Below are positions 5,388-43,230 of a stretch of 58,852 bases of DNA, one piece after another. The stretch's first letter is position 1. Each line of letters starts with the position of its first letter. The position numbers and the translations under genes are program-made. The notes under the pieces were generated by a model, which had not been told where the DNA came from, searched no databases, and saw nothing but the letters and a program-made list of their open reading frames with translations. The DNA is from Oscillospiraceae bacterium (GTDB lineage Bacteria > Bacillota > Clostridia > Oscillospirales > Oscillospiraceae), in contig CACWLG010000009.1 of assembly GCA_902761635.1 (NCBI GenBank), positions 1 through 58,852 of the forward strand, read 5' to 3'.

Positions 5388-5395
5388 CGTCAAAC

Positions 5396-5499
5396 GAAAC
5401 TCGCTCCGGTCCTCTTTTCCGGTTTCAAAGAGCCGGAAAAGCTCCCTTTCCGTTCCTTCCGTTTTCCTCCCAAATTCAAAGCCAACTGCTTTGAATTTG
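5396..5499 (+). repeat. Structured intergenic repeat, copy A
   Basis: About 100 bases that align along their whole length with 42874-42979 (copy B). Shared blocks include GAAACTCGCTCC at the start, GGTTTC, AGAGCCG and GCTCCCT. An internal hairpin CTTTTCCGG ... CCGGAAAAG is followed by a perfect 12-bp stem (5471-5482 with 5488-5499). In copy B the same hairpins exist with changed bases on both arms. Copy A lacks the T-run that follows the last stem in copy B. Confidence 0.75.
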
Positions 5500-42804: not shown

Positions 42805-42834
42805 TTGACAAATCGTGTCGAATTATTATAGAAT
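42805..42834 (+). promoter_or_regulatory. Promoter for the candidate structured RNA
   Basis: -35 TTGACA (42805-42810), 18-base spacer, -10 TAGAAT (42829-42834; TATAGA with 16-base spacing also possible). Expected start near 42841. Confidence 0.8.
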
Positions 42835-42840
42835 TTATAT

Positions 42841-42990
42841 CCCCATACGGGGGAAGGCGTTGTCTCGTCAGAAGAAACTCGCTCCAGTTCGCATGTGCGG
42901 TTTCCGTAAGAGCCGCAAACGCTCCCTATACGCTCCTTCCTTCTTCCTCTCCCAATCAAAGCTTTTTGCTTCGATTGGGTTTTTTGTTTT
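42841..42990 (+). ncRNA. Candidate structured RNA or leader, repeat copy B
   Basis: About 150 bases from the predicted start to a terminator. Folds visible: CCCC-ATAC-GGGG at the 5' end; TGCGG / CCGCA around a loop reading TTTC...AGAG; and a near-perfect 11-bp terminator stem (42951-42961 with 42969-42979) followed by a TTTTTTGTTTT run. From 42874 on it aligns with 5396-5499, where the internal stem is TCCGG / CCGGA, a two-sided change that keeps pairing, and the last stem also changes on both arms. A 27-codon ORF begins 38 bases after the terminator, so this could be a free small RNA or an attenuating leader. Confidence 0.6.
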
Positions 42991-43027
42991 AGGCGGTTCC
43001 GCTACATCTCCGAAAGGAGGTGTTATG

Positions 43028-43111
43028 ATGCCGATTACAATAACGTTCCATATCCTTAACTGGACAGTAACGATTACTGTAAAGAGCAGAAACCGCCACT
43101 CTGCCAAGTGA
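43028..43111 (+). CDS. Predicted 27-aa microprotein
   Basis: Starts MPITITFHILNWTVTITVKS and ends in basic residues RNRHSAK. The pattern is an alternating Thr/Ile beta-like stretch with a basic tail, possibly membrane-active. AAGGAGG at 43014-43020 sits 7 bases before this ATG (another ATG is directly upstream, 4 bases away). The stop codon lies in a hairpin (43088-43095 with 43112-43119, plus inner CACT/AGTG). It lies downstream of the candidate leader RNA. No function recognised. Confidence 0.6.
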   Translation: MPITITFHILNWTVTITVKSRNRHSAK

Positions 43112-43230
43112 CGGTTTCTAAGACAACTTAGAACAATCCTGGGCGGAGCCGCTTTTCGGCAACGCCTTTTATATTTTTATTATAGCGGTTCGGAGCTTAT
43201 GTGTCAAGGCTTTTCCATGCCGCTTCCCGT

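Follow-up and report, generated by a model that had tools for sequence, protein, structure and literature searches.

A peptide cassette with the predicted anatomy of a type I toxin-antitoxin locus, carrying an inserted repeat RNA, in an Oscillospiraceae genome

Introduction

What is the function of a gene of only 27 codons that is preceded by its own promoter and by a folded RNA of about 150 bases? The gene in question lies in a stretch of 58,852 nucleotides from an Oscillospiraceae bacterium, the whole of which is referred to here as the window, and a preliminary description made from the sequence had seen in it the layout of a riboswitch or attenuator controlling a tiny gene, or of a small RNA next to one. 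The parts that it named are present. There is a strong forward-strand promoter, TTGACA-18-TAGAAT (42805..42834, with TTGACA at 42805-42810), which agrees with the consensus at 11 of 12 positions, and a folded RNA (42836-42990) with a predicted energy of -44.7 kcal/mol, compared with a mean of -34.3 kcal/mol for shuffled sequences (z -2.87; none of 200 shuffles as good). The latter contains a hairpin, CCCAATCaAAGC-TTTTT-GCTTcGATTGGG, followed by TTTTTT (about 42950-42985), as in a terminator, while a terminator scan that needs a perfect stem lists no terminator in the region. The microprotein gene follows behind the Shine-Dalgarno sequence AAGGAGG (43014-43020, forward strand). That first reading missed a hairpin over the stop codon, a terminator-like stem with a U-run on the forward strand, a promoter on the reverse strand that matches the consensus at 12 of 12 positions, and the make-up of the locus from two modules.

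Results and discussion

Two modules at one locus

The locus is composed of two separate multi-copy modules, a cassette (module B, 42805-43207), in which the peptide gene lies between facing promoters, and a repeat RNA (element A) that is inserted in it. A search of the own genome with the query 42805-43119 returned 13 matches, consisting of the window itself, 11 partial matches to the leader only and one match of 35 bases to the hairpin at the end of the ORF (G000:C88). Matches were found in 22 of the 60 relatives searched, where parts of the leader and parts of the ORF match at separate places, and in G027 the promoter-part and ORF-part matches are only 11 bases apart, at the point where the window has the leader; the leader is therefore an insertion, and the cassette is usually found without it. 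As detected with model R1, element A is present in 6 of 73 cassette loci and absent from the remaining 67 (some of these loci being one place counted twice), and the six A-bearing cassettes belong to five genomes (G000, the genome of the window, G007, G086, G109 and, with two copies, G106). Within 87 further loci A is present in three, which are three of the same places again under accession numbers. On a tree of 35 rows, which is poorly supported and holds only four of the six A-bearing cassettes, the placement of A needs three changes. By these comparisons, A is a separate repeat rather than a leader that co-evolved with the tiny gene.

The 35-base match in the own genome (L110) is a lone copy of the stop-codon hairpin; the frame upstream of it is not the conserved peptide, and it is perhaps a remnant.

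A conserved family of small peptides

The peptide ORF, MPITITFHILNWTVTITVKSRNRHSAK (43028..43111, forward strand; 27 codons and stop), begins at the second of two ATG codons, which is the start that matches the family, the first (43025) giving 28 codons. The family was compiled as 125 distinct ORFs from 216 loci and begins with the motif M[PR]IT. Comparison of its members establishes that this small ORF (<60 aa) is real and under purifying selection: for the 92 distinct 27-codon ORFs beginning MP, dN/dS over codons 2-20 is 0.169 (2161 non-independent pairs), the entropy of the third codon position is 1.35 bits versus 0.54 and 0.30 bits for the first and second, and the residues T6, H8, R23 and H24 are invariant. 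Inside the stop-codon hairpin synonymous change is also held down (pS 0.177 versus 0.533). A longer subfamily of 35-40 aa (seven loci) keeps the N-terminal part of the peptide and the stop-codon hairpin, the latter being read in another frame such that the peptide ends TPxK instead of NRHSAK, which indicates that the hairpin is kept at the RNA level. The loci of this subfamily (L297-L303) have the same facing promoters.

The physical character of the peptides was examined for 24 members of the family, in which the best 17-residue stretch has a hydropathy of 0.48-1.48, relative to a cut-off of about 1.6, and the beta moment (1.33-2.10) exceeds the alpha moment (0.18-0.98). As judged from these values, the peptide looks like an amphipathic beta-strand and not like a transmembrane helix. 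The net charge of the same 24 peptides is +2 to +10, with positive residues at the end, giving the cationic C-terminus that is also a mark of membrane-associated type I toxins. Comparison of three family peptides with PHROG, NCBIfam and Pfam gave no family above cut-off (the best Pfam match, SM-ATX, has an E value of 0.072 and lies below its cut-off), and the strings NRHSAK, TLTFHIFG and RNRHSAK are absent from the PMC full texts searched. The family, which comes from gut and rumen Clostridia, is one for which no description was found and is unnamed in the libraries searched.

Facing promoters and a predicted antisense RNA

In addition to the forward promoter, the cassette of the window contains a promoter on the reverse strand, TTGACA-17-TATAAT (43207-43179), which faces inward into the ORF. 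Both signals are supported by comparison across the 117 of 118 cassettes with a Shine-Dalgarno sequence and enough sequence to be counted. A forward promoter of at least 10/12 is found in 77 of these cassettes (12/12 in 3; shuffles 8/585), the other 40 scoring below 10/12 within 125 nt of the start codon, and an inward reverse promoter of at least 10/12 is found in 115 (12/12 in 74; shuffles 7/585), compared with 18 that have one of the opposite orientation in the same stretch. The antisense promoter is nearer to the consensus than the mRNA promoter across the cassettes, as would be expected if the antisense RNA were in excess.

Judged from the promoter positions, the mRNA would start at about 42841 and the antisense RNA at about 43172, and the facing promoters should yield an mRNA and a convergent antisense RNA that overlap at their 3' ends. 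The predicted antisense RNA (43076..43172, reverse strand) would be about 97 nt long, as estimated from the promoter and the stop-codon hairpin, and would cover the 3' UTR and the last codons. The hairpin in question (43088..43119) lies over the last codons and the stop codon and, with the U-rich flank GCUCUUUA that it has on the reverse strand, is likely to be the terminator of the antisense RNA. The 10-nt flank of this hairpin has a mean of 4.9 A (U in the antisense RNA) over 108 cassettes, compared with 1.7 in a segment further up. On the forward strand, the 3' arms GCGGAGCCGC and GGCAACGCC, which are the partners of two 5' arms of the mRNA, and a U-run (43143..43175) form a terminator or terminator-like element, and a T-run (at least 5 T in 8) is found 45-95 nt past the stop codon in 103 of 107 cassettes, a count without a shuffle control.

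Conserved folding of the cassette mRNA

The predicted mRNA begins with the hairpin CCCC-AUAC-GGGG (42841..42853, forward strand), assigned from sequence and fold, which is followed by 5' arm 1 of a long-range helix, GGCGTTGTC (42856..42864, forward strand; pairing with 43158-43166 as helices 1-2), and by 5' arm 2, GCGGTTCCGC (42993..43002, forward strand; pairing with 43143-43152 as helix 3). The Shine-Dalgarno sequence is hidden in a local hairpin, ACATCTCC-GAAA-GGAGGTGT (43004..43023, forward strand; helix 4), and the stop-codon hairpin constitutes helix 5. Both promoters were present in 75 cassettes, of which 65 non-redundant ones were listed and 57 aligned, the eight rows left out being divergent or damaged (L068, L087, L097, L098, two of L123, L125 and L129).

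Within this alignment 91.6% of 2103 cells are paired, compared with 38-50% in slid controls, where the pairs counted are those of a single member (L013), a choice that favors the real register over slid versions. Changes on both sides of a pair occur in 24 of 38 pairs and in 109 cells, versus 29.3 cells in shuffles, none of 500 being as high. These are distributed over all four sets of helices: they affect 5/5 pairs of the outer 5'-3' helix, 3/4 of the next and 7/10 of the inner one (helix 3), the last three pairs of which are unpaired in 12-23 of the 57 rows; 3/7 pairs of the Shine-Dalgarno hairpin (87.5% of cells paired); and 6/12 pairs of the stop-codon hairpin (97.1% of cells paired). In four rows of the latter, CACT/AGTG has become CACC/GGTG, a change that jointly turns Ser-Ala-Lys into Pro-Ala-Arg. 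When RNAalifold was run on the same alignment without a given structure, both local hairpins (Shine-Dalgarno and stop codon) were predicted and the 5'-3' helices were not. Folded as a single sequence, the window mRNA has 5'-3' pair probabilities of 0.97-1.0 (arm 2, 0.99-1.0), and arm 1 pairs with a probability of 0.95-1.0 in a G106 cassette that lacks A. As modeled, the primary transcript would be locked against translation by the Shine-Dalgarno hairpin and the 5'-3' helices together, and such a block, imposed on the primary transcript by a local anti-Shine-Dalgarno hairpin or by an interaction of its 5' and 3' ends, has been described as a hallmark of type I loci (PMC6733600).

Distribution and insertion site of the cassette

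Peptide matches are found in 33 of 102 genomes of the genus, with up to 7 per genome (G094, G035 and G108 being counted by weak partial matches only, those examined in G094 and G108 belonging to the longer subfamily), and in 13 of 295 genomes and 11 of 149 genera of the order, this genome included. Named records among the best 80 of 205 relatives are mostly rumen or gut assemblies of Oscillospiraceae or Ruminococcaceae, and also include Evtepia, Anaerotruncus, Dysosmobacter, Oscillibacter and some labelled Lachnospiraceae. Examples of cultured relatives that carry the cassette are Vescimonas fastidiosa and Evtepia gabavorous. Among plasmid and phage records there are one Vescimonas plasmid (4 places), six phage records, four of them below 60% identity, and seven loci in IMG/VR. 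The neighbors of two of these seven were examined, L210 lying with terminase genes and L214 being ambiguous; on one IMG/VR contig the cassette has the terminase genes on one side and, on the other, a phage gene family whose function is unknown. One of the six phage records (L038, MT835905.1) has long ORFs that look like ordinary chromosomal enzymes.

The cassette of the window has on one side a CYTH-like gene, with a match to Pfam CYTH below cut-off, and on the other a gene for a UvrD/PcrA helicase. In a comparison of 18 loci, these two genes abut without a cassette in six (G107, G108, G120, G103, G094 and G105), including the closest relative at the site (G107, 95%), and G106 has a cassette without A there; apart from these seven and G095, the loci have other neighbors. 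The simpler reading of this pattern is that the window gained the cassette rather than that G107 lost it. The same slot in G095 (L324 2213-3081) holds genes for DUF1902, the toxin HicA and DUF1653, as though this were a site at which toxin-antitoxin genes tend to land.

Comparison with known type I systems

Gram-positive type I loci are described as overlapping at their 3' ends (PMC4147584), and the cassette, in its predicted anatomy, resembles several of them. As presented in that source, txpA/RatA and bsrG/SR4 of Bacillus subtilis combine a toxin mRNA with a convergent antisense RNA and a 3' overlap, and the Shine-Dalgarno sequence of bsrG lies in a stem, as it does in the cassette (PMC4147584). 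Both systems are also associated with prophages, as is cassette B. Their peptides, of 59 aa and 38 aa, have a membrane helix, whereas the cassette peptide (25-40 aa) is beta-patterned. No sequence family links the cassette peptide to txpA/bsrG, and the three peptides searched against Pfam, PHROG and NCBIfam showed no similarity to Fst/Ldr, TxpA/BsrG or other toxin families known from type I loci.

The aapA/IsoA systems of Helicobacter pylori share with the cassette a long-distance 5'-3' lock, hairpins that hide the Shine-Dalgarno sequence and the presence of several chromosomal copies; IsoA is described there only as cis-overlapping, whereas the cassette antisense RNA would cover the 3' end (PMC6733600). 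Fst/RNA II (par of pAD1) is similar in its convergent RNAs, in the stem that these have in common close to their 3' ends and in its end repeats, which are described as direct repeats that make the two RNAs complementary (PMC4147584). The end repeats of the cassette, in contrast, are inverted, and as a consequence the ends of each RNA pair with each other. The type I loci of Clostridioides difficile (CD2517.1-RCd8 and others) are likewise from Clostridia, present in several copies and associated with prophages, and have the convergent overlap that is predicted for the cassette; their toxins, described as having 34-59 aa, a transmembrane region and a lysine-rich end, differ by that description from the cassette peptide (PMC6563280). 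According to the same account, experimentally validated type I loci among gut and rumen Clostridia are limited to C. difficile (PMC6563280).

Interpretation of the cassette

It is probable, and we hold this view with moderate confidence, that module B works like a type I toxin-antitoxin locus with an antisense-silenced, putatively toxic peptide, and that A acts as an attenuator where it is present. According to this reading, the right-hand promoter would produce the antisense RNA of about 97 nt, which would be terminated by the stop-codon hairpin and would overlap the 3' UTR and last codons of the peptide mRNA, while the left-hand promoter would produce an mRNA locked by the 5'-3' long-range helix and the Shine-Dalgarno hairpin, and pairing with the antisense RNA would remove the peptide mRNA. 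Should the antisense RNA fall and the mRNA be trimmed or refolded, a cationic, beta-prone peptide of 25-40 aa would be made that may harm or slow the cell, and the cassette would thereby be retained. Membership of a known family is withheld because the membrane helix is missing, even though the anatomy is that of Gram-positive type I loci. If the reading is right, a peptide family without a name in the libraries searched, and hidden by annotation size limits, is to be added to the antisense-silenced cassettes that gut and rumen Clostridia carry; as it looks like a beta-strand in place of a membrane helix, the peptide might have a new mode of action.

The same hydropathy values and beta pattern clash with the membrane toxins usual in type I systems, and they are what might be expected if module B instead encoded a regulatory or signalling peptide, beta-hairpin-like and beneficial, whose dose is kept low by the antisense RNA and the mRNA folding. 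Such a peptide would be weakly hydrophobic and beta-patterned as observed, the strong constraint on its sequence is more than toxins need, and antisense silencing is not restricted to toxins. The distribution speaks against it: a gene that is patchy (33/102), multi-copy in some genomes, carried on a phage contig and missing from an empty site in the closest relative looks selfish or defensive, and we regard a non-toxic regulator as unlikely, though deserving of serious attention. The inverted repeats at both ends (GGCGTTGCC ... GGCAACGCC), which would fit a mobile element as well as a type I locus, the several copies per genome and the empty site could also be attributed to a MITE-like element, with end repeats serving as transposase sites and inward promoters present by chance. 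This is very improbable, given that the ORF is under purifying selection, that the Shine-Dalgarno and stop-codon hairpins are conserved, and that the arms covary instead of holding one sequence.

Element A, a dispersed repeat RNA

Element A (42866..42990, forward strand) is placed between 5' arm 1 and arm 2 of the cassette mRNA and comprises the helices P1 and P2, a terminator-like hairpin (P3) and a U-run, the R1 match extending over 42866-42979 with 107.8 bits. The window contains another copy (5388..5499, forward strand), directly behind the TAA stop of a long open frame. R1 is matched 20 times in this genome, with scores down to 29 bits, in 91 of 102 genomes of the genus and, across the order, in 22 of 197 genomes at E<=0.001, this one included, with the best match outside the genus at 74 bits and the rest weak. 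For an alignment of 28 copies (128 columns), the proportion of paired cells is 86% for P1 and 95% for P2, and 14 of the 23 pairs in these two helices have changed on both sides; P3 is poorly aligned (48% of cells paired). The alignment overall has 90 cells with changes on both sides, versus 33.5 in shuffles; further pair types are not above shuffles (104/500). A lack of conservation of the fold in relatives had been named beforehand as one outcome that would refute the preliminary description; the folds of A and of the cassette are both conserved with compensatory changes.

The surroundings of A were tabulated for 105 distinct copies, which were chosen from the best matches and are not a random sample. 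Of these, 27 have a same-strand tRNA ending 0-3 nt before them and 7 begin -1 to 0 nt from the stop codon of a frame with 90 codons or more, where random positions have a stop within 2 nt in 42/2040 cases; the triplet CCA is present 0-3 nt upstream of A in 53 of 98 copies. Copies 0-3 nt behind the CCA end of a tRNA occur in the own genome (L219, L224, L226, L230 and L235, behind Ser, Gly, Arg, Leu and Gly tRNAs, respectively) and in relatives (L022-L026). Upstream of tandem copies (L246, L255, L257, L274 and L275) there are 30-nt pieces, similar to one another, whose last three bases are CCA; these resemble the 3' half of a tRNA and are not called as tRNA.

A scan of the whole window with cmscan gave no Rfam family at gathering score, and element A, a structured repeat with copies that begin at the CCA of tRNAs, has no Rfam name; four weak matches obtained for the region at E values up to 10 (the ylbH leader twice, ncS025 and the Diantho 3'UTR) were taken as chance. 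REP and BIME sequences are dispersed palindromic repeats. A is like them in being a short structured repeat with tens of copies outside coding regions, and unlike them in being a two-part covarying RNA that begins where genes end, chiefly at the CCA of tRNAs, in a genome where no Y1_Tnp gene of the RAYT kind was found. An origin of A through a RAYT was rejected, with no Y1_Tnp matches in this genome (85.8% complete) and a search that was positive in 5 of 14 control genomes.

A possible role of A in the cassette

All six A-bearing cassettes place A between the promoter and the ribosome binding site, and their copies differ from those elsewhere in the sequence behind P3. As counted by script, 6 or 7 T in 8 follow P3 in four of the six cassette copies; for the other two (L103 and L105) the script picked another stem, and the tail behind the real stem, GCTTTCTTTA, is U-rich by eye. 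By comparison, only one of 92 copies elsewhere has 6 T in 8 behind P3 and none has 5 or 7. With A ended by a terminator-like hairpin and placed between promoter and ribosome binding site, the majority of transcripts would be expected to end near 42990, and peptide mRNA would arise by read-through alone; the stopped transcripts would also be a source of free A RNA. Most likely, as far as the sequence allows a judgement, A in the 5' UTR is a constitutive attenuator or terminator that lowers the amount of peptide mRNA.

The order of a promoter, a covarying structure, a terminator-like hairpin with U-run and an ORF, together with a U-rich tail that is missing from 91 of the 92 other copies, is also what a riboswitch or an attenuator sensing a ligand or a tRNA would present. 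In this respect the layout proposed at the outset stands, and attenuation is reasonable, but the leader itself is a repeat that is found mostly away from the gene, with 20 matches in the own genome, a presence in 91/102 genus genomes and only 6/73 cassette loci that contain it. A riboswitch aptamer would be conserved in front of genes that share a function; A is found mostly behind tRNA genes and elsewhere, and it belongs to no known Rfam class (0 window matches at gathering score, with only weak, chance-level hits in the region). Control of the peptide gene by a sensing RNA is on these grounds distinctly improbable, and the type I layout, with its own 5' UTR, terminator and antisense promoter, appears to fit the tiny gene better. 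The position of A behind tRNA genes (27/105 copies at 0-3 nt), the upstream CCA (53/98) and the covarying P1 and P2 can alternatively be explained if A is a trailer RNA processed from tRNA transcripts, a sponge or small RNA that turned mobile and is a passenger in the cassette without effect on the peptide. This is a possible account, albeit a somewhat doubtful one, as the U-rich tail of the cassette copies suggests a function there and one same junction is shared by the cassette copies of five genomes.

Attenuation by A can also be set in a wider and decidedly tentative scenario, which we consider rather unlikely as a whole, in which a genus-wide mobile RNA that docks at tRNA 3' ends, and at some coding genes, was captured by the new antisense-silenced beta-peptide family, gained a working terminator and meters the peptide by attenuation, perhaps in answer to the state of tRNA or RNA processing. 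If this were true, the captured A would be a third, co-opted layer of control on a type I-like cassette.

A frame of 98 codons that opens with GTG (42815-43111 of the window) crosses element A in the reading frame of the peptide and begins upstream of the predicted transcription start.
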